Source: Brachionus koreanus | Lineage: Eukaryota > Rotifera > Eurotatoria > Ploima > Brachionidae | Assembly (NCBI GenBank): GCA_016987375.1 | Contig: PJRA01000503.1 | Span: 5,737-35,493, forward strand | Length of the DNA: 29,757 bases | Direction: 5' to 3' | Shown here: positions 1 to 28,565 of the stretch, in pieces | How positions within the stretch are numbered: position 1 is the first letter of the stretch | Layout of the letters: each line of letters opens with the position of its first letter | Translations under genes and position numbers: made by a program | Notes under the pieces: generated by a model | What the model was told of the DNA's origin: nothing | What the model saw: the letters and a program-made list of their open reading frames with translations, nothing else | Databases searched by the model: none

Positions 1-1234
1 CAAGTATCAAGGATGTAGCAACCACTTCCCGGAGTATGCCATCAACTATTGTAAATACACAGACTCGTGGACTTGCATTAGAAATATTGTCTCAAATGCC
101 AACCGACAGCGCACTCACAAGAACAATCAATAGAAATCGGCAGAAGAATTCTATTTATACAACGGATCCAGAGCTTATAATTGATCTAAGGATCCCGGAA
201 GATTTAAAATTTACAGCACGGGGACAACGATTTCTTTTGTGGGATTCTCATGATGATGATGATGAAAAGGCCCGTATTATCATCTTTGTCACAGACAAAA
301 ATCTGCAAGTATTATCGGAATCGCGAGACTGGTTTGCGGATGGTACTTTTAGGACAGCTCCACTTTTATTCACCCAATCCTGGAATATTCATGCCAAAAT
401 TAGCGATAAATCTTTTCCACTTGTATTCTGCCTGCTAGAAGACTAGACAGAACTTACATATACCAGGGTTTACGAAAAACTTTTAGAAACTAAACCAGAC
501 CTTAATCCAAAGACCATTATGACGGATTTTGAAAAAGGCGCAATGAATGCTGGAAGTTCCGTTTTTAGACAATCAAATATCAAAACTTGTCTTTATCATC
601 TCACTCAAAATATATGGAAGCATATACAGTTACTTGGTCTCTCTTGTCTATACAAAGCTCCAGTGTCAAGCGAAGAATCAACTCAAAAATTTAATGAGGA
701 CTGCAAAAAACATATGAAATATTTATTTGCCATAGCGTTTGTCCCAGTCGACGACGTATAAAATGTTTTTGAAATAATCGAGAAAGATATCCCTTCCGAA
801 TTGGACTTACTTTATGATTATTTTGAGACCAACTATATCGGAGAAGTTGTTCCACAAGAAGGCGTTGGTCGTCGACGAAAAAAAAGGATCGCAAAGACCC
901 TTTATTTTAAATCAGTGTTTGGAATATGTATGACAATGTTCTGTCTGATTCGTCGAGAACAATCAATTGTTTAGAAGCTTGGCATCGAGTTTTCAATAAG
1001 AGAGTTGCAATTTCTCATCCTCAAACACCAGTATTTATCCAGCATATAGTTGAAGTGCAAGATAAAGTGGAACGAGATCTTAATCACATGGATAATGGCG
1101 TTCCGAACACTCAACGATAGAATCAACGAATACGTGATCATAGAATCAAACGAATCGTCGAAAAATACAACGATTCAGATACAATTCAATATCTTAATAG
1201 TATATGTAATTATTTCGATTTTATTCATAATTGA
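1..1234 (+). pseudogene. MULE transposase, decayed, 5' end outside window
   Basis: Remnant of a Mutator-like (MULE) transposase. The reading frame is open from the first bases, so the gene begins upstream of the window. One frame carries the catalytic core: the WFADGTF stretch near 333, MTDFEKGAMNA at 519 and the Cys/His segment CLYHLTQNIW at 585. These match the spacing of acidic and C/H motifs of the MULE domain. That frame is broken by in-frame TAG (444-446) and TAA (759-761). Around 920 it shifts to the frame starting at 926, which holds the typical C-terminal segment RTINCLEAWHRVFNKRVAISHP, broken once more by TAG near 1119 and ending at TGA 1232-1234. Several independent lesions show it is dead. 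Family identity is from motif recognition; the FLYWCH-type DNA-binding part expected upstream is not visible. Confidence 0.85.
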
Positions 1235-1412
1235 CAACTTTTTATCAGTTTTTTATTTTTATTTTCCATTTTTTTCAGATATTCCATCATTTCAGTCTTT
1301 TGTTCATTTCAGTTTCTTTTTTTTTCATTATATTGCTATTTTAATTAATTATTAATTATAATAAATTAAAAAAAAATTAGTTAAGTTTTTTTTATTTAAT
1401 TTAAAAAAAAAT

Positions 1413-1551
1413 TGTCGGATCGAGTTTTATCGGAAGTGACTTATCGGAAATTATTTTGTCGGAAAAGGCATTGTCGGATCGAAATTTGTCGGAAATGACT
1501 TGTCGTAAGTGACTTGTCGGAAGTGACTTTGTCGGAAAGGTCTGCCAGCCC
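1413..1551 (+). repeat. Subterminal short-repeat array at the 3' end of the MULE
   Basis: Nine copies of a 14-15 bp unit around the core TGTCGGAAGTGAC, with cores starting at 1413, 1428, 1442, 1457, 1472, 1487, 1501, 1515 and 1530. Copies vary (TATCGG, TGTCGT). The array ends at GGTCTGCCAGCC, read from outside as GGCTGGCAGACC, the probable transposon terminus. Arrays of short repeats near the ends are usual in MULE-type elements, where transposase binds them. The matching 5' end would lie upstream of the window. Confidence 0.7.
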
Positions 1552-1620
1552 TTTGACATCGTTTTTTTGATTTGAACTGTACTCAGTAGTGTTATTCATC
1601 TTAACAAGTTTGCATTTGTC

Positions 1621-1836
1621 CTATAGTGACATGTTTTTGTCTTCCAATTCTCTGGTAAGTTCCAGGATTTCGCTATTGAAGTCATTCCGAATCGGTTGTT
1701 TTGCTAGCTCAATCATCATCTTCTTAGTGAGTTCATTTTCAATTAATCGATTGTATAAGTCAACCCTAATGTTTTTGATGATGTAATCCGTAGTCATGAT
1801 ATTCAAAGACAAGAATAAGCTTGTTGTACGACACAA
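1621..1836 (-). CDS. Unassigned ORF, possibly exon or element fragment
   Basis: An uninterrupted minus-strand frame of 71 codons ending at TAG 1621-1623. The peptide has mixed charge, with a helical-looking C-terminal half (NELTKKMMIELAKQ, then SEILELTRELEDKN) that could form a short coiled coil. The first residue is TTG, not ATG; the first true Met lies 13 codons in, so the open frame may be the 3' part of something longer. It sits between the MULE terminus and the conserved 3' coding end of non-LTR copy A. It does not match the C-terminal segment seen in copy C, so it is either lineage-specific sequence of that retrotransposon or an unrelated fragment. No family recognised. Confidence 0.25.
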   Translation of the reverse strand: MCRTTSLFLSLNIMTTDYIIKNIRVDLYNRLIENELTKKMMIELAKQPIRNDFNSEILELTRELEDKNMSL

Positions 1837-1856
1837 CTTGTTGAGACTGTCAGTAG

Positions 1857-3355
1857 TTTAAGTTTATTATATGCCTCATGATATAATAAGTTAGAGGGAG
1901 TATCATAAAGTATAGAACGAACCGCTAAATTTTGGATTACTTTTAATATTTTTTAAATTGGTTTATGAAAGAGAGTTAAAACAAGTGAAAGAATAATCTA
2001 GATTAGATCCAATCAAAGACTTAAAAAGTTATAAAGTCAAGGCCCCATTTTTTTTGTTGACAAGATTTTGATTAAGTTTAGCCTTGAATTACAAAGTTCT
2101 TTAATTTCTTCTATCATTGAAGAAAAGGTTAGTTTAGATAAGAATTTATTTCCTAGGAACTTCATTTTTTTTAGGTTTTCGATTTTATTCCCATTAATCC
2201 TTTAATTAAAACATAGAACTTTGTTGTTTATAGTAAAAATCATTAAGCAAGACTTTTCACGCGAAATCTTTATTTTCCACTTGAAAATTTTGTAATAATA
2301 ACAGGTCGACAATTTGACGGGTCTTGTGTATGAGAAGATTTCTTAGAGATCATAGTGATTTTGACACTTTTCCAAGCTTTAGGAACTGTAACTTCTTGAA
2401 GACTAATATTTAAAAGTTCTTTTATCTCTTTTAATAAATTTAAAAATTGAAGGTAGTTTTTTTGACATTAGATTGTGGATAAGGTCAGGTCTGCAAGTTG
2501 CTTCTCCCTTTGGCTATTTTAATGCCGAAATTATTTTATTAGGGCTTATCGGTTCCTTGAAGTTAAGCTGACTATTGCTTTTAAAATATTTTATATTAGA
2601 GTGAGTAATTTTTAAATCTTTTTCATTGTTTTTATGACCAGGATTAAGACTGAATGTTGAAGATAATTGGGTTAAATTTGGGCCTTTATTTGATCTAAAC
2701 TTATTTATTTTTTCCAAAATGTTCTGCTTGATAATGGGTTTTTCCCCATATTATTAATAAAATCAAACCAATTTTCATTTCAAAATTTTTCTAGGCTAAT
2801 TTTAATTTCGAATGTTAACTGAAAACTAGAAATAAATCAAGAATTTCAACATAATATCAATTAAAGATATTAAAAGTAGGGGTTTAATCATTAATTACGG
2901 AAAAATCTAATTGATTAATTATCCTTTCCAAAATAATTCAATTTTGATTTTCTCCTAGACAGCCTACTTGTTTTTTCCGAGCGTTAAGATCACCTCCGAG
3001 AATAATATTTTTACATATGCTTTTTATTTTTCAAACAGATAAAAATTAACAAGTTCATTTGGTAGGTTATAGAGGCTAAATAAAAATAAATATTTGAGTC
3101 ACTCAAATCAACTTTTATTTCGTCAAATAATACTATATCAGGAAATTTGTGAGACAAAAAATTTTCTTATAGTTTAACCTTACTAGGAAGATGAGCACAA
3201 TTCAAATGTGTAATTAATAACCTTTTTTTTTGAAAATTGTTTTTTTTTTTGCAATTTGAAATATTCATTCTGAATTTTCTTCAAATTTGAACGGGTTGAT
3301 TTAATGATTTAACGGTTTACTCTAAATTCAAGTTTTGTCAGATTTATTCTTGCAG
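1857..3355 (-). mobile_element. Non-LTR retrotransposon copy A, degenerate
   Basis: Jockey-like LINE remnant. Read on the minus strand it begins with an apurinic endonuclease region: a start resembling LLITHLNCAHLPSK near 3200 and the motif GGDLNARKKQVGCLGEN at about 3010-2950. It continues through the linker EPISPNKIISALK (2520-2560) and PSNCRPVIITKF (about 2310) into the thumb region. The palm with YxDD is deleted. The 3' coding end (AYNKLKLLTVS, about 1860-1880) matches the same place in copies B and C. Frames are broken by many stops and shifts. The 5' limit is set by where recognisable sequence ends and is approximate. Confidence 0.75.
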
Positions 3356-3497
3356 CTTTTTAATTCTATAATTTAAATTACTTTACTTTTATCTTATTTT
3401 TTCTTTAAATTTTTATTTTATTTTATTTTTAATTAATTTTAATTTATTATTTTTTTATTAATATTTTTTTTTTAATCTGAAAGAGCGTTACCACGAA

Positions 3498-3835
3498 GTA
3501 TGCTTTAAAACCTACACCCGTCAAGATTGAGAAAAAACAACACCGGGTGTAAATCACAAAATTTTTTATAAAAAGCCCATTTTTTTTAGCACATTTACTT
3601 TTGCTTACCTGAATTTTATTATACAATTTTTTTTTTGTAAAAAATAAATCATCATCATATTAAAATTTTAAATGAAAAAAAATACTTCAATACACCCAAA
3701 AACACCCTTGTAATTTTCGTGATTCACCCAAAAACTAATAATATTTTCAACTAATAATATTTTCTAATTCATATTTTTAAGAGCATAAAAATATGAATTA
3801 GAAAATGTTAGTTTTATAACTAAAATAATATGATT
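3498..3835 (+). repeat. Left terminal inverted repeat of the 3498-5058 element
   Basis: Pairs with the right arm. Just inside position 3745 it contains a short tandem duplication (CTAATAATATTTTC twice) and then a 21-bp perfect hairpin (3759-3779 with 3786-3806), neither present in the right arm in that form. A CACCCG segment recurs twice near the outer end (ACACCCGTC and ACACCGGGTGT, the latter self-complementary). Confidence 0.85.
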
Positions 3836-4266
3836 TTGCTATGAAAAATTGAAAAAATAACTTTTAATGTTTTGAGATGATACACCCTGATTTTTTTGCC
3901 AAATCCCATTTTTTTTCACTAAAAAAAAATTGCTATAGAAGGTTTTCGACCATCAGGAATACTAAAATTTGGTTATTTTTTTAAATATAAATTAATTTTT
4001 AAAGTAAGTTTTTTCTAATAATTTTTTAAATGTTTGTAAAACATCAAAAATGACATACTAAAGTAAAAAGAAGAAAACATTAGAAATTTTTTTTCTTTAA
4101 TCATGAAATTTAATTATTTTGAATTTTTATTTTATATTTTTCATAAATTAGATTAGAATAAATTAAATTTTATATATTATTTATTAAAAAAAAATTGTTC
4201 TTTTATTTTTATTTATATATTGTATAGATTTTATATAAAAATCATATTAATTTTAATTTTTAGTAA

Positions 4267-4575
4267 TTAACAATTTTTCCTATAACTTGACGTAATTGTT
4301 TTTTCCATCACTGCTTTATTTAATTTACTTTTTAAAAAAGATTCGATTTTTTTTTGTTGCTCTTCTCTTGTTAGTTGGCTCCATCGTCGTCTTGTATATT
4401 CGTAGTGTCGAAAATATTTTGAAACTGTATACTCGCCACTTCCTCTCATTGCTAAAATACTTTGATCAACTTGTCCGTCGGCTAAACTTTTAAATGTGTC
4501 AAAAATATCATATAAATATTTTTTTTTATGATTTGTATATTCTTTTATCTTATGATTAATACCTTTAATGGCTTA
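4267..4575 (-). CDS. ORF fragment inside the long-TIR element
   Basis: A minus-strand frame of about 100 codons, open from near 4575 to a TAA at 4267, with a possible start at the Met coded at 4447-4449. It is Lys/Arg-rich: YFRHYEYTRRRWSQL is followed by an amphipathic stretch REEQQKKIESFLKSKLNKA. A DNA-binding or transposase-associated role would suit its position inside a TIR element, but no catalytic D/E motif is seen. A second readable stretch upstream (DRQNSFIVSENETDFYSRSDS, about 4630-4720) may be an earlier exon or the same gene after a frameshift. Likely the residue of a transposase gene in a deletion derivative. Function is not claimed. Confidence 0.45.
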
Positions 4576-4744
4576 AGTTAGAATTTTTATTTATCATCTT
4601 TTTTATATGGATGCTTAAATTCCTTAAGATTTTTAATCACAGAATCTGATCTAGAATAAAAATCAGTTTCATTTTCTGAAACTATAAAACTATTTTGACG
4701 GTCTTTTCTATTACCAAATATCTCAATCAATCTGTTTTTTTGGT

Positions 4745-5058
4745 CTAAATCATATTATTATAGTTATAAAACTAACATTTTCTAAATCATATTTTTATGC
4801 TCTTTAAAGAAATATTATTAGTTTTTGGGTGAATCACGAAAATTACAAGGGTGTTTTTGGGTGTATTGAAGTATTTTTTTTCATTTAAAATTTTAATATG
4901 ATGATGATTTATTTTTTACAAAAAAAAAATTGTATAATAAAATTCAGGTAAGCAAAAGTAAATGTGCTAAAAAAAATGGGCTTTTTATAAAAAATTTTGT
5001 GATTTACACCCGGTGTTGTTTTTTCTCAATCTTGACGGGTGTAGGTTTTAAAGCATAC
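4745..5058 (-). repeat. Right terminal inverted repeat of the 3498-5058 element
   Basis: Reverse complement of the left arm, ending at 5058. It lacks the roughly 30-bp internal gain of the left arm, so it is probably closer to the ancestral arm. Confidence 0.85.
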
Positions 5059-13514: not shown

Positions 13515-15260
13515 TCAGTTATCACTAGGCCTTTGCTCAGTTGAACTAAAATTTTTTTGTCCTTCATTAATAAATGAATTTTCTGCAGAACAACAATTGC
13601 TAAACGATTGATCCCTATTAACTTGCAAGCAGCTTCTAGATGATCGCAAATTTGGCTTATAGTCTACTGTTAAATTGAATTGAGCGTTTTTTCTATTTGT
13701 TTGAACATTTTCCGTCTTGCATGCGTACAATATGTTCATGAAAATAAAACCAAATTCTTGTCTAAATTTGGCTGGTCCAAAAACAATATAGAGCAAAAAA
13801 TTAATACTAGAATTGCACATTATTAAGAAATTTGATAGATCGAGACAAATTGAAGCGAATGCGCTTTTATCAAACTCGATAGTTGGGTAAATTACATAGA
13901 TTATTTTGGCGATGGCGGCAGGAAAATGACATACAAAAAAGATGGCAACTACACCAAATAGTGTGAGTGTCAATGCTCGTCCTCTATGTGAATTTTTACT
14001 ATGCTGTATATTCGAGCTCGATGACGGTTTGGTAAAGCTCAAGCTTGAAACAATGCTTGATTTGGGAGCTAATGTGCATCCAAGCGTTGTTTCTTTTAGC
14101 TCAGACTCGTTTTTAGAGGCCTCATCACAATTTGTATTGACTGAATTGTAGTCCTTAAGAATTTGACTAGGATCTCTTTTGAGTCTGTATTTTTTACATC
14201 GATTTTTAGACTTGAAATAGGCACGTAATAGAACTAAATTGAATATTAGAATGAGAATAAATGGAAATATATAAATGGCTATCATGTAAAACCAGAGGTG
14301 AAATATTTGACGGAATAGACGGGTTTGACCAAAACTAGTAATTGTCGTAAAGACATACGTTTTGTGCTGAATTTCAATTGAACTTAGCTTTTTTTCAAAC
14401 ATTTGTGGTACCAAATAAACAATGGCCATTACATACAACATCATAATTGTTAGCTTAACTCTTTTTATTTTATTTCTGGTGGTCACTTGATTTTTTAGAC
14501 AATCTGAATTTGATTCTAGATTAGATATTGATACATTTTTAAATGTTGAATGCTCTTTTAACCTAACCGAGCACCAACATAAAGGAATAAAACAATTTTT
14601 TTTTGAATAAAATTTTAACTCATAGGTATTTTGTGTACAGTTGTTTTTTAGTTTAACATGACAAAGAAATGCTTGTGAATGTTCAGAATTTTTGTTGTCT
14701 GAGTCATTGAGCGCATATTTGCGTTTTTTTATTGAGCTAAAAAAATTAGATGGTTTGACAATAGATCGGCATCGGTGAATGGAAAAGGCGCAAATGAGCC
14801 AAACACTCAGAGCCTGAAGAGTGGTTGCTATAGGATGCGTGTAAACTGAAATACTTAAGCAAAATTCTCGGTATTTGGTTAAGTTTATTTCCAAGTATGG
14901 AGGTGGCATATACTCGAGCATATTTAATATGGCGAATATACAACTGAACAAGTCGCAAAAACTCAATGCTGTAAGATAAGCATAAAAACTGGATAGTTTG
15001 TACTCGAATGAAAAATTTTGTCGAGACCTCGGATTAAAAGAATATTTTCGGCCTCTTGTAAGACTTGGCATGAATAGAATATACAAACTTATAATATTAC
15101 CCAGTATGCCAAACACTGATATTACAACTCCGAGTGACCCGAAAACATGTCTCCAGATCTCTAGGTCCGAATTGTGACGAACTTCGTAATATATTTGATG
15201 CTGCAAATAGTCATTTTGTATTTCAGTCACATTTAAGTGACTTGAATTTTTTGCAATCAT
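13515..15260 (-). CDS. Rhodopsin-class GPCR, FMRFamide-receptor-like
   Basis: A single exon encoding 581 aa. Seven membrane segments: TM1 38-62 (GILGN, Asn55), TM2 92-115 (LSFCDLF, Asp103), TM3 143-166, TM4 269-287, TM5 322-346 (Pro333), TM6 428-452 (FVCHFPAAI with CxxP), TM7 470-495 ending NSSINFLLYIVFG, then helix-8 motif AKFRQEF. The TM3 start, the TM5 context and the NSSxNF..Y TM7 are typical of invertebrate FMRFamide-type peptide receptors. N-linked sites (Asn5, Asn10) sit in the extracellular N-terminus. Oddities: DRY is replaced by HRC (162-164), NPxxY by NFLLY, and the loop between TM3 and TM4 is about 100 residues and Cys-rich instead of about 20. The TM5-TM6 loop is long and Ser-rich, and no Cys is seen in the second extracellular loop to pair with Cys134. 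It likely signals through G proteins at the plasma membrane; the ligand is unknown. Confidence 0.85.
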   Translation of the reverse strand: MIAKNSSHLNVTEIQNDYLQHQIYYEVRHNSDLEIWRHVFGSLGVVISVFGILGNIISLYILFMPSLTRGRKYSFNPRSRQNFSFEYKLSSFYAYLTALSFCDLFSCIFAILNMLEYMPPPYLEINLTKYREFCLSISVYTHPIATTLQALSVWLICAFSIHRCRSIVKPSNFFSSIKKRKYALNDSDNKNSEHSQAFLCHVKLKNNCTQNTYELKFYSKKNCFIPLCWCSVRLKEHSTFKNVSISNLESNSDCLKNQVTTRNKIKRVKLTIMMLYVMAIVYLVPQMFEKKLSSIEIQHKTYVFTTITSFGQTRLFRQIFHLWFYMIAIYIFPFILILIFNLVLLRAYFKSKNRCKKYRLKRDPSQILKDYNSVNTNCDEASKNESELKETTLGCTLAPKSSIVSSLSFTKPSSSSNIQHSKNSHRGRALTLTLFGVVAIFFVCHFPAAIAKIIYVIYPTIEFDKSAFASICLDLSNFLIMCNSSINFLLYIVFGPAKFRQEFGFIFMNILYACKTENVQTNRKNAQFNLTVDYKPNLRSSRSCLQVNRDQSFSNCCSAENSFINEGQKNFSSTEQRPSDN

Positions 15261-22616: not shown

Positions 22617-25600
22617 TTTGTAAGCAAGAAAAAACTGATTAAAATTTAGTAGTTTTATATTCAAAGAAATTACTAGAGGTCCAATTTTTTAACATCATTG
22701 AAATTTACTTTTAATAGGCTACTTTTATATCCTAATTTTCCCATTTTTAGATTTTTAGAATCATTGTTAAAATCTAATAATTAAAATTTTTACTCTTTTT
22801 TTCCAAATAGACATCGAGTTTTTCATTTAAAGTTCAAAGATGAAAAATGAAAATAATTTTGAATTTATTAAAACAAAAAAAAATTAAAAATAACATTTTA
22901 CTTTCTTTTGAATCTAACAGCATCTACTTATTTGTAGAAATAGACTTAGATTTTGCATCTTTTTGATTTCCTCAATAATTGAGAAAAATGAGTAAAAAAG
23001 TTGTCGTCGAAAATAAATTACGGCTTTTAATTTATTTAAATTTTTTAATACTAAACAAAAATTGAGAGAGGTAAGACTTAGTTATTTTTTCCTAAATTAT
23101 TTGAATTTATTTTATATCAAGTTCTATTTAAAAGATAATAATACAAGATGAAAAAATATGGTGATCTCATAATCTTTAAAAAAAAACAAAGAAGTTTAAC
23201 AAAATTAACTATCTTTCTTTCTAGTGAAAAGAAAATTTCAAAGAGAATTAACAGTTAAATTATCTGTGTCATAGTTAAAAACAGATTCAGATTTTGTAAT
23301 CAAGAAAACTAATCTGTATGATTCTTTTATGTAAATAGTTAAAAAATAGAGGAAGAGAGAGAGAGAGAGTTTTTTAATGTTACAGGAATTAAGCTAAAAC
23401 GATTTTCTAAAAAAAGAAAAGAAGGAAAAGAATAATTTTTTTAATTATCGCTTAATTAATGACTCATTCAACGCTTGAATTAAAAACTTAATGCAAATTC
23501 TAAAAAAATAATTTTTAAAAGCTGTTTAATTGCATCAAAGTTCAATCCTTTTTAAAAAACTATCGTGCTGAAATAATTTCAAGTTCTTAATAATGTACTC
23601 GAATTAAAGCATCATCAGTAATAAAAATAAAGCAGTAATAATTTATCTATCTTGATTTATTTCATAAAATAAATAATTTATTTTAAAATTCACTAGATTT
23701 ATGAAAAAGAGAAAATCTTAATTAGAATCAAACAAACCATGTTAAAATGCAATTAAAAAAGATGTTTTTGAGCAATCTTTTTGATTTAATGTACTTTGGC
23801 TCGAAAGAATTAAAATTAAATGAAGAAATTAAGCAATTTTGGTTGTTTTAAAACAACGACAAAATAAAAGCTTTTTTTTGTTGAAAAATTGATGTGTTTT
23901 TCCGGTAATTTGGCCTTCAGCTGCCTTAATTTATTGAAAGCACATCAGTAAATTTAATCAAAAAAAAATGTTAGCAAAATTTAAAAAATTCATAAAGGCG
24001 AATCATCATTTGAATTTTGTCGTTTGAACACATTTATCTCTTGCTGTTACTGTAATAAATTAATTACTTATTAGATTGGATTTGATTCATTGTAATGTAT
24101 AAAACATTTTCAGTTTTGCCTTTGGTGCTAACTTCTTTTAATAAATACTAATAATTTATTTGTTATTTCAAAGATTTTTCATTTTCTTCTTGATTTTACT
24201 AACAACAAAATTAGATAATTCATAAAATAAAATGACTGCAATCGAATAAGTTTTTTATTATTTAAAAAATTCGGCAAACATTTTGACAATGTGAAAAAAT
24301 AAAAACCACTTTGGGCTTATTCAGGATTCTCGTACATAACTACTATGATAAATTTAAATTCCAAAAATTTGTCATATCTAATAAAATTAACTTTTATTAT
24401 CAAGAAATAGAAAGAAACAGGAAGCTTATTGATAAGTGTTTTAAGAGTGTTTTTCCAAAATTACAAGTTATTTGATTAAGTAAATTAATCAAAATTTTCA
24501 AAAAAATCAATAAATTTCCATAAATTAACTTAAAGATTCGAAAAACTAAAAAAATTTTAAGATTTATTAATTTTTATTAATCAAATTTTTATTATGATTA
24601 AGTTTAATTAGAAAAATATAGCCGCATTTAATAACTTATTAAAAAAGAAGTTTTTGTCCTTAGGCACTTTTATTTTAATAATTTGACTAAAATCTTTTTT
24701 TAAGTTTTGTTGATTTTTTGCGTTTCATAAAATTAATGTTGAATTTAGGAATTTTATATTTATTTTTCTCCTCCATAATTTGAAAATATTTGAGCATTAA
24801 AACAAAAGAATGCTGATAAAAAATCAGATTTTTTGCAGTCTTCAATTATTTGTATTCCAAAGCAGATAAGAAAGATGATGGTAGAAAAAAAAACTTTAGT
24901 TAAAATTTAAGATTTAAAAAATAGAAAAATTTAATTTTGAATAAGATTAATAATTGTTTAAAGTTTCTCAAGTTAATATTTTTATTATTGCTTACAAGTG
25001 GACTAGTCATGGTATTACAATTGTAATTTTTTTAGATGCTTTTCTTTAAATGAAAATTTATTTACAATTAGTGTTAGTATTTGTAGTAATGTTTACTTTA
25101 GATTAGTACCCTAGGGCCGTTCTATGCGATCCTCACGTTAGACGTTTTAGTAAGCAACTATTTTTGCTCCATGTAAACCAAAAAGCTTATGGTTTAGTTA
25201 GTTCACAAATCAAGTGATATCGACAACGATGTAAATATGCTCAGTGCATTTCATTTTCACAAGAAAATAAATTTATTAATTAAAATTAATTAACTTCAAC
25301 AATAAATATTTTTACATTCATTTAGAAATTTTTTTTTTTTGACAAAATGTAAATACTTTTAAATTCTTGCATTTTCACATTTAAATATTTTCCAAAAATT
25401 TTTAAAAGCTTTCCAATTTGAACAAAATAAAATACATTGAAAAAATCTGCTCTTATGTAAAAAGTAGACAACTAGTAAAACATCTTTACAATTTAAATTG
25501 ATTATTGATTTGATTTTCTAAATAAAAAGAAAGTATAAGTTTTGATTTAGATAAAAAAGGTGAAATAAATTATTTAAAATTTAATTTATTTCTTTTTATC

Positions 25601-25864
25601 TTTAATGCAAATAAGAAAAATCTTAAAAAAAGTAAAATCTGATTTTTAAAAGAAAATCAGTAAAATGTTACTTATTATCTTTAATATTTATAGGAATATG
25701 GAAAAATTATCTCTCATTGCTTTTTACTTTCAAGAACAAACAAAGTTGAACAAAAATGCTGACGCATAAATTCTTGATGATTGCTTTTAAAAAAAATATT
25801 AGCTGTACAAAAAAAAAAATTTAATAGTCTTTAATTTGAAAATTAAAAATGTTTTTTAATCATC
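22617..25864. other. Gene-poor AT-rich stretch
   Basis: No gene seen. It holds a short (GA)n microsatellite at about 23352-23369 and one compositionally distinct patch near 25110-25150 (GGGCCGTTCTATGCGATCC), which may be a transposon end. An AAACCA/TGGTTT stem lies near 25177-25196. Confidence 0.5.
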
Positions 25865-25866
25865 TA

Positions 25867-26392
25867 CAGCGGTTCTAATAAAAACGAAACGGTCCCAGGC
25901 CAGCCGGCGATTTGCCGACCATTTTGCGTCCCGGCCGACCTATTCATCCGACCAGTCCGTCCGACCAAACCGTCCGTCCTAGCCATCCATCAAAGCCGTT
26001 CCATCCGGCCGTCCCATCCGGCCATCATAGCCGACCTAAAAAATAAATAAATTAATTTAAAAAAATAAATTTTAAAAGCTGGATATGACGGATGGGTCGG
26101 CCAGATGGAACGGTTTTGATGTCCGGTTGGGACGGCCGGGTCGGTCGGATGGGTCGGCTATGATGTCCGGGTCGGCCGGATGGGACGGCCGGGTCGTTCG
26201 GATGGGTCGGCTATGATGGCCGGATGGAACGGTTTTGATGGCCGGTTAGGACGGCCGGGTCGGTCGGATGGAACGGCTTTGATGGATGGCTAGGACGGAC
26301 GGTTTGGTCGGATGAATAGGTCGGCCGGGACGCAAAATGGTCGGCAAATCGCCGGCTGGCCTGGGACCGTTTCGTTTTTATTAGAACCGCTG
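25867..26392. mobile_element. GC-rich foldback MITE, Tc1/mariner-like termini
   Basis: A 526-bp element between TA dinucleotides (25865-25866 and 26393-26394), with termini CAGCGGTTCTAATAAAAACG. The left arm 25867-26006 and right arm 26266-26392 are inverted copies. They are identical over 127 bp except for a 13-bp gain (AGTCCGTCCGACC) in the left arm. Most of the element is GC-rich, in sharp contrast to its surroundings, and is built from GGCCGGATGG-type words. The inner right side is a tandem array (26082-26265) and an AT-rich spacer (26034-26078) separates the arms. No ORF was found. TA flanks with CAG termini suggest mobilisation by a Tc1/mariner-type transposase. Confidence 0.9.
26082..26330 (+). 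repeat. Tandem GC-rich array within the foldback element
   Basis: Irregular repeats of 45-60 bp built from GATGGGTCGGCTATGATG, GATGGAACGGTTTTGATG and GGACGGCCGGGTCGG modules. GATGGGTCGG begins at 26091, 26148 and 26201; GATGGAACGG begins at 26104, 26223 and 26267. The array overlaps the right inverted repeat and explains the arm-length asymmetry. Confidence 0.8.
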
Positions 26393-26394
26393 TA

Positions 26395-27535
26395 AATTGA
26401 ATTCTTAATTCAAAATAGACCTAAGTAGTACCCAAAAAAATGTTGAATGTTACTCATCAGCTTCCTTCTTATATCTGATTGAATCAAAATTTAAATTTAA
26501 AGGGTTGATTTTAAAAATTACTCATGCTAAATGTGAAAATTATGAAGCAAAACCTGACAATCTTATTAATCAATTAAAACAGATCTGAACATTTGATCTA
26601 AGGAATATTTTATTTTCATTTTGGTACTTTAAAAATTTTAGAAGAATATTAATATTTTAGTAACTCTAAAATATTGCCTGAAAATCTTCATAGAACAAAC
26701 AATTGATCAAATAAAATCAAATATCAATTAACAAAAAGAGAATTTTTATTTAAATAAATTTTAAAAAATATCCAGAATCAAAACTAAAGAATATTTTAAG
26801 TAATAATTGAAATCGTTCTTTATATATGCTTCAAATATTAATTTCGAAATAGAATTTTAAGAAAGAGCGAAATCAGACTAAAAATTTTTGTTTTCAAAAT
26901 TTTGTAAATTTAATTATCAAAGGATTGGGATACTTTAATTGATTGATGACATAAAAAAACTCCTGAACCTCAATTAATCTGCATTTATTTTTCAATTAAA
27001 ATGATTTTAGTATAATCTGAAAAATAAAATTATAATTGCAAATAAGTTTAGTTTAGCAAAAAGTGATGTTTTTCATTCATTCAATTAGTTGAAATTATAA
27101 TAATCACTCTAAATTTTTTTACATTCCCTTAAAGGCGTTAAATGAATGAATGAATTAGTATATATTAGATAATTTAGAAATGTCAATTAAAATAAAAAAC
27201 AAAATTTATTTATTTTATTCAATCTTAAGCATTTAAAACTAAAATTATCAAGCTTGAATTCCTAACACTTTATGAAAAGTTATGTTACATGATTTTTGAA
27301 AAAAGTACAAAATCAATTACCCTAAAATTTACAATAACAATTTGAATCGTAGGGAAAAAGTAAAGTTTTTAAGCATCACAAAACTTTAAATGGAGGATGT
27401 AAAAACAAGTTGTAATTCAAGACTTAACATAATAAAATATCTATCAAATAAAAATGGCCTCTGAAACCTAAAACATCATAAAATCTATACAAATCTTTGA
27501 TAGGATCAATATTAGACTATTAGTTACTTGGTTTA
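26395..27535. other. AT-rich spacer without gene
   Basis: No frame or element end recognised on either strand. Confidence 0.5.
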
Positions 27536-27537
27536 TA

Positions 27538-28334
27538 CAGTATGTTGCAAAAATTTAGAAATTTTTTTGTTTGTGGACACAAAGATTGTTTTTATGTATG
27601 TAAAAGGCGGGAAAATAAAAGGCGGCTCTCTGAGTTAGCGGTATGTGCTGAAGCCCCATCTTGTCGAAAAATCCAAAGATCATTTGGATCAAATAGAAGT
27701 TCAACAGATGGTAAAAGATTGTTTTTCAAGGTGTTAATGTAGACAAATTGATTAATTTGTCCTGTATAAATGTTGCATATACCACTGCCTTAGTAGGAAA
27801 TGCATCTCCATATACTGGCTCTAAACCTTTTTTTTTGGAGATATCTCATTATAGTATACTTACTTATCCTAAACACTAGAGTCTAAAAATTAAAATTAGT
27901 GGCGAGTTTTTGATAGCTAGTAGTAGGATCTTCTTTAATCTGTCAAAAAATGTAATTTTCATCCCTAAAAGTTAGCTTCCGAGGTCTACCAGAACGGCTT
28001 CAGAGACAGAACCAGTCTCTTTATATCATTCCTTGGTTGAAGAGACACATTTTGGACATACACCTAACAACTTGGCTATTTCGTTTTGCTTTTTATCTCC
28101 ACTTTTTAGCCAGCCACGATCTGCCATTTTTTTTGGGCTAGACACATTTTTTTATCCATCTTTTGCCAAATTAAAAATTTTTTGGTAATGTTATTTAGAG
28201 ACCAAATGAGCAATCGGAGAGTTTTTAAATTAAGCAGTTTAAGAGAATAGAAATAATCATAAAGTTGTGAAAAAATTTAGTAATGATTGTTAAAACTTTT
28301 AGATTACCCGAATTTAAACTTTTGCACCGACTTA
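27538..28334 (-). mobile_element. Internally deleted Tc1-like transposon
   Basis: Its left border follows TA (27536-27537) with CAGTATGTTGCAAAAATTTAG. The right border, read inward as CGGTGCAAAAGTTTAAA, resembles it, giving worn inverted repeats. Inside is a broken Tc1 transposase on the minus strand. At about 0.8 kb it is well short of a full Tc1 element (around 1.3-1.6 kb), in agreement with the missing middle of the gene. Confidence 0.7.
27600..28127 (-). pseudogene. Tc1-family transposase, broken
   Basis: Minus strand. The N-terminal helix-turn-helix is readable from ATG at 28127: MADRGWLKSGDKKQNEIAKL and then LGVCPKCVSSTKE, followed by a stop and YKETGSVSE. After a frameshift comes SGRPRKLTFRDENY, the standard GRPR linker of Tc1 transposases. 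The central part, with the first catalytic Asp, is missing. Near 27740-27620 the frame VYINTLKNNLLPSVELLF leads into LWIFRQDGASAHTA, the segment with the second catalytic Asp of the DDE domain. Stops and shifts rule out function. Confidence 0.85.
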
Positions 28335-28435
28335 AGTTTTTTAATTTTTAGAGGAAGTTTTTTGATTATAAATTTTTACAAGATAATTATATTTTTATGC
28401 CAAGTGTGATACATCAAATTGCAGAGGAAAAAAAA

Positions 28436-28565
28436 TTTTCAATTAAGTTTATTTTTTTTTCTTTTGCACTCTAATATTTGTAAAATTCAATATAAAAAAA
28501 TTTTCAATTAAGTTTATTTTTTTTTCTTTTGCACTCTAATATTTGTAAAATTCAATATAAAAAAA
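28436..28565 (+). repeat. Perfect 65-bp tandem duplication
   Basis: Unit 28436-28500 is repeated without a mismatch as 28501-28565 (both contain CTTTTGCACTCTAATATTTG and a nine-T run). Identity even in homopolymer lengths points to a very recent duplication, or to an assembly artefact. Confidence 0.85.

Follow-up and report, generated by a model that had tools for sequence, protein, structure and literature searches.

What kind of element is the strikingly GC-rich inverted repeat that occupies positions 25867-26392 of an otherwise AT-rich stretch of 29,757 nucleotides from the rotifer Brachionus koreanus (hereafter termed the window), and how did it come to reside there? The analysis described below points with high confidence to a non-autonomous, internally deleted DNA transposon of the Tc1/mariner type, which is MITE-like and possesses a foldback architecture. 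The original prediction, made from the window alone, had guessed at a TA-inserting foldback related to the Tc1/mariner type, and this guess is now supported by dispersed copies, an empty target site and the transposase of a long relative (locus L061).

Structure of the Foldback Element

The whole element (25867-26392, assigned to no strand) is 526 bp long with a GC content of 56%, and lacks open frames of at least 100 aa. It is constructed of a left arm of about 169 bp, the C-rich strand (25867-26035, plus), whose inner part consists of CCNNCC-type repeats, an AT-rich spacer of 45 bp (26036-26080, plus), and a right arm of about 312 bp (26081-26392, minus), which carries imperfect tandem repeats of 22, 44 and 53 bp and has its tip at 26313-26392. 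Both ends of the element bear the tip CAGCGGTTCTAATAAAAACG, and the coordinates, the CAG...CTG termini and the TA flanks were all found to be exactly as predicted.

The left tip (25867-25946) agrees with the right tip at all 80 bp. In the alignment of the arms, these 80 identical bp are followed by one 13-bp indel and another 45 identical bp, giving 125 of 125 aligned bases; the identity of the "127-bp perfect arms" first described is thereby borne out, while the length of 127 is reached only when the flanking TA is counted. Inward of the aligned bases the arms are merely similar and their lengths unequal (about 169 versus 312 bp), and both are built of CCNNCC-type units with imperfect periods of 13, 22, 44 and 53 bp. 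The 13-bp stretch is confined to the left arm (25947-25959, plus) and had been taken for a gain. The indel is indeed present, but the left arm of L061 also has this stretch, which makes it no less likely that the right arm has lost it.

The description of the element as compositionally alien holds, since its GC content is 56.3% (about 59-61% in the arms) compared with 24.8% in the rest of the window, where the most GC-rich other stretch of 526 bp attains 39.2%. The long, stable hairpin expected upon transcription was likewise recovered, with a predicted RNA fold of -406.7 kcal/mol versus a mean of -204.4 for 100 shuffles (z -30.6), a value that restates the inverted repeat. An Rfam scan of the window gave 0 matches. 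The claim that no coding sequence is present is valid for frames of at least 100 aa; the arms are traversed by two shorter stop-to-stop frames, of 67 and 69 aa.

Dispersed Family and Its Ends

The genome searched comprises 83.26 Mb in 92 contigs, the window included. With the left arm as the query, at least 44 matching stretches were detected genome-wide, which are arms rather than elements and are often found two per element, and a pattern composed of the tip and TA, with up to two mismatches allowed, gave 49 matches versus 3 for the reversed control pattern. The proposed check for other copies in the assembly was thus answered in the affirmative. Among the fetched loci, at least 13 two-ended copies were recognized, one of which measures 3,450 bp and the other twelve 102-530 bp, in a list where an element lying in two loci was counted once and L019 107-1973 was left out as a chance pairing with a poor match; in about a dozen further loci, the 1.5 kb retrieved contained a single end. 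The copies seen number in the tens, a lower bound drawn from the fetched loci, and the short two-ended ones vary from 102 to 530 bp, instead of the high copy number and homogeneous length of a classical MITE.

Since the pairing of ends into two-ended copies favored TA, the count of TA flanks rests on a separate collection of 42 distinct ends, which did not favor it and which was drawn from the fetched loci with at most four edits to the tip; ends beyond four edits and the loci L063, L064, L068, L070, L072 and L073 lie outside this count. TA is located outside 39 of the 42 ends and is lacking at the other 3. Seven of the 42 derive from the pattern search that contained TA, and for the ends from loci found without TA in the query the figure is 32 of 35. 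Conservation of the ends peaks in the first 30 bp, with means of 0.95, 0.91 and 0.83 for each 10 bp, and declines inward.

Target Site and Empty Sites

An empty-site query was assembled by placing a single TA between the 150-bp left and right flanks of the window copy, and it matched contig C8 across the junction at 81% identity over positions 3-300 of 300. The C8 sequence contains one TA and no element, and represents a paralogous empty site of the sort whose search had been advised. It belongs to an older, diverged duplicate of the neighborhood at 24003-27491 of the window (no strand assigned), which is composed of four matching pieces of 73-88% identity and is devoid of the element. The absence of the element from this duplicate, together with its single TA, indicates an insertion with duplication of the target, of which 25865-25866 is the left copy and 26393-26394 the right (neither assigned to a strand), and also indicates that the insertion in the window is younger than the duplication of the neighborhood. 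TA comprises the only target bases duplicated in the C8 alignment.

The copy on contig C29 is embedded in another AT-rich repeat, and its joined flanks yielded 48 matches, 2 of which are the C29 locus itself. Two other copies of this host repeat were aligned; both are continuous across the junction and lack the element, and the sequence at the exact point of insertion is TA in neither of them. For the copy on contig C5, the joined flanks found no match spanning both flanks, one match extending nine bases into the left flank.

Long Relatives and the Origin of the Short Copy

L061, on contig C7, is a relative of 3,450 bp (locus positions 99-3548) with TA on both sides and the same tips as the window element. 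Its arms have a GC content of 52% (left) and 54% (right) around an interior of 26%; the plus strand carries broken pieces of a transposase with internal stops, and the minus strand a second, divergently oriented gene. On this reading, the 56% GC of the element within a window of 25% GC is a property of the transposon ends and not as the mark of a foreign insert. L066 (contig C11) shows the same tip, a GC-rich arm and the C-terminus of the transposase, followed by a masked stretch, and L065 (contig C1) is a remnant with the same tip and sequence of the second gene. L063, L068, L070 and L072 are further remnants. In L063, two GC-rich blocks (45% and 37%) on the two sides of a 25% GC region are inverted repeats of each other (50 bp, 86%), while L066 and L068 each have one block of 50% GC adjoining AT-rich sequence; the block of L068 yielded no inverted-repeat partner. 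A search for an autonomous Tc1/mariner-type element sharing the window element's end had been advised. L061, and L066 with one end, are such relatives in their ends, but their transposases are broken or partly masked, and no intact autonomous copy of the L061 family was present among the loci read.

The spacer ties the short copy to this long form. It matches positions 300-344 of L061, immediately inward of the left arm of that long element, at 44 of 45 positions, in comparison with 34 of 45 for the best control among other loci totalling 220,470 bases (with overlaps counted; L074 and L075, which match at 45 of 45, were left out of the controls as being the window itself) and 31 of 45 for the best match elsewhere in the window. 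This agreement implies that the window copy is a deletion derivative of an L061-like element, rather than one that merely shares its tips.

Identity of the Transposase

None of the pieces of L061, L063 or L064 that were scanned exceeded a Pfam cut-off, and a PDB sequence search with two L064 pieces gave nothing at E <= 1. L064, on contig C48, is a distant relative that was found through a piece of L061 (36% identity) and shows an open frame over its readable extent. Its exon-by-exon reading retrieved P0031, a metagenome protein of 288 aa, at 41% identity over 73% of the query (E 3.3e-35), which was the sole match of L064 at E <= 0.01 in the protein search. P0031 scores 55.8 bits against Pfam DDE_3, above the cut-off of 28.6, and 25.1 bits against HTH_Tnp_Tc3_2, below the cut-off of 31.5, and it aligns with the Sleeping Beauty transposase SB100X at E 1.5e-11. 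In single pairwise comparisons, P0031 was matched by the L061 pieces (E 9e-15 and 3e-12), L064 (E 4e-20) and L066 (E 8e-15). As these Pfam and PDB searches with single pieces gave no match, the Tc1-type assignment runs through P0031. The spacing from the second D to the E is 34 residues in P0031, the family of the window element itself being known from broken copies.

Across the transposase pieces without stops, third codon positions were the most different in 4 of 6 comparisons, a test from which the middle piece was excluded because it contains stops. Elsewhere in the genome, 61 matches to DDE_3 were recorded at E <= 0.001, some of them below the family cut-off. Matches to a Tc1-type transposase at 272912-273592 of contig C10 and 1281895-1282575 of contig C26 each lie in a stop-free frame of 495 aa, and these two frames possibly belong to a recently active family in this genome.

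The Second, Divergent Gene

The second gene is kept within the family, with 56% identity between L061 and L063 over 87 aa (E 2e-31). For the three pieces that are in frame, third codon positions were the most different in 9 of 9 comparisons, and the differences summed over these comparisons, which are not independent, amount to 67, 62 and 102 at codon positions one, two and three; g2_ex3 and g2_ex4, two of the nine pieces, were excluded as being out of frame. Exon 1 aligned between L061 and L064 with a BLASTP E of 0.010, a score equaled by 2 of 2000 shuffles, while another exon gave no alignment between these two loci. The link between the second genes of L061 and L064 is consequently weak, and all three comparisons that involve L064 should be read with care. 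When the exon-joined second gene of L064 was compared with a large protein collection, 123 candidates were returned, with 0 at E <= 0.1. A putative relative on contig C9 (E 4e-6) was discarded, as tblastn on the C9 locus gave a best E of 0.25.

Age and Homogeneity of the Arms

The window element is likely young, in agreement with the earlier view, which is supported by the 125 identical bases of its arms and by the 79 of 80 tip bases that it shares with the left arm of the C29 copy (the left tips differ at 1 of 80 positions). The other possibility raised at the outset, that the arms are kept identical by gene conversion, left no clear sign. When each of the 26 arms of 13 copies was compared with its partner arm and with the best arm of other copies, the partner was closer in 4 cases and more distant in 19, the remaining 3 being equal to two decimals; the four arms closest to their own partner are both arms of the window copy and both of C2b. 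With the partner closest in just 4 of 26 arms, homogenization within elements is not borne out, and the identical arms of the window copy are attributed to the recent arrival of a copy whose arms matched.

Classification and Alternative Explanations

The features gathered above combine three types of element. The duplicated TA, the inverted repeats starting with CAG, and the Tc1-type DDE transposase in partners that are broken or partly masked are those of Tc1/mariner elements; a short, non-coding copy whose ends and sub-terminal sequence are common with a longer coding copy is that of a MITE; and the long, internally repetitive inverted repeats are those of a foldback.

An inverted duplication made by the host, or a locus for hairpin RNA such as a source of small RNAs, might equally be expected to fold into a very stable hairpin and to be free of frames of 100 aa or more, but such an origin is very improbable in view of the precise TA-flanked insertion relative to the empty C8 duplicate, of the ends with the same tips that are dispersed in the genome, and of the transposase-bearing copies that have these tips as well; a small-RNA role could have been acquired later. 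A foldback of another superfamily (hAT, P/Galileo or Mutator), adjoining TA by chance, would fit the tips starting with CAG, which occur in hAT elements too. It would also fit the long, internally repetitive TIRs, which resemble those of Foldback and Galileo elements (PMC3688188, PMC3573991). This reading is given even less credence, because the C8 empty-site alignment duplicates TA only, TA lies outside 39 of 42 ends, and the linked transposase is of the Tc1 type. The target-site duplication of hAT elements is 8 bp long, so that membership of hAT was rejected on the duplication of TA alone, and membership of the P superfamily was rejected on both the linked Tc1-type transposase and the TA duplication.

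The striking contrast in GC content might also be taken as the sign of a contaminant or an assembly artefact. This explanation has almost nothing to recommend it, as numerous contigs of this assembly carry the family, one copy (C29) lies inside an AT-rich repeat of the genome, the same kind of arm flanks the 26% GC interior of L061, and the exact 28-bp tip is absent from viral and prokaryote contig collections.

Other Features of the Window

Several neighbors of the element were also recorded. An AT-rich foldback at 3498-5058 possesses two arms of 249 bp that are 100% complementary and lie 1063 bp apart. Its arm gave at least 42 genome matches among the 40 of 57 candidates scored, the two of the window included, and some of these form opposite-strand pairs separated by 0.6-1.5 kb (contigs C1, C4 and C14), which reveals another inverted-repeat family. 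At 27592-27789 (minus), 1.2 kb from the GC-rich element, a short open stretch with the motif RQDGASAHTA looks by eye like a decayed Tc1/mariner-type transposase, probably of a different family from the element, within a relic that perhaps extends over 27500-28250; it has no Pfam match, and tblastn against four Tc1-type sequences was not significant (best E 0.48). Broken frames at 1-1120 (plus) resemble by eye a transposase of another kind, possibly Mutator-like, and a Pfam scan of the frame 3-446 gave nothing above the cut-off. The window further harbors a perfect tandem duplication of a 65-bp unit at 28429-28558, and an FMRFamide-receptor-like gene at 13515-15260 (minus) with 82% full-length identity to a Brachionus plicatilis protein.

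Proposed Mechanism of Mobilization

For a deleted Tc1/mariner-type element as proposed here, the transposase would be supplied in trans by an intact relative and would bind the conserved tips, whose conservation is strongest in the first 30 bp; it would cut at CAG/CTG and then paste the element into TA. The inner GC-rich CCNNCC arrays may represent high-turnover sequence, which would grow and shrink by slippage or exchange. They could in addition act as extra protein-binding sites, by analogy with Galileo, for which multiple transposase-binding sites in the TIR repeats are reported (PMC3688188).

A more speculative model, which we put forward tentatively and consider rather unlikely to be right in full, is that the rotifer Tc1-type clade operates as a two-component system of a transposase and a divergent second protein. 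The end arrays, GC-rich and CCNNCC-type here, and AT-rich and ACGT-centred in a sister family, might have grown into fast-changing binding platforms for either protein, and the foldbacks would be pure end-arrays that parasitize the system.

Comparison with Known Systems

The element is unusual in uniting foldback-style, internally repetitive GC-rich arms with a two-gene parent. No description of a GC-rich Tc1-type foldback in rotifers, or of a Tc1 element with a divergent second gene, was found among the titles and abstract openings listed for a few sets of search terms in the part of the literature that is under open licence; Tc1 and foldback are absent from the main texts of PMC6555955 and PMC7943196, mariner appearing only in a reference of the former. 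The questions raised concern the factor that binds the arrays, the role of the second gene, and any input of such hairpins to small-RNA silencing in rotifers.

The commoner terminal start of Tc1 elements is CAGT, from which the tip of the window element departs at the fourth base. With the MITEs of the Tc1/mariner (IS630-Tc1-mariner) group the element has in common the duplication of TA and a short form whose ends and sub-terminal sequence recur in a longer copy bearing a transposase. It differs from them in its long, internally repetitive arms of about 59-61% GC, in the tens of copies seen, which is low for a MITE, and in the second, divergent gene of the long copy. Tc6 of Caenorhabditis elegans is a palindromic repeat with Tc1-related ends and offers a likeness in its palindromic form, while its sequence and host differ.

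A closer counterpart is L086 on contig C26, an element at about 445-1995 whose transposase falls in the same clade (48% identity to P0031, residues 216-288) and which likewise has TA-flanked tips, in this case CAGTGG, and long, internally repetitive inverted repeats. Its arms, in contrast, are AT-rich and made of ACGT-centred repeats, which means that not every member of the clade is GC-rich at its ends; long repetitive ends may be common in the clade of L061 and L086, with GC-richness particular to the L061 family.

Galileo and the Drosophila Foldback element resemble the window element in their long, internally repeated TIRs, which vary between copies and between the arms of one copy. Galileo is assigned to the P superfamily (PMC3573991), whereas the element described here is linked to a Tc1-type transposase and duplicates TA. 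A foldback-type element is hereby tied to a Tc1/mariner-type transposase within one genome, in parallel to Galileo in the P superfamily, which suggests that different DNA transposons acquire long, internally repetitive ends independently of one another.
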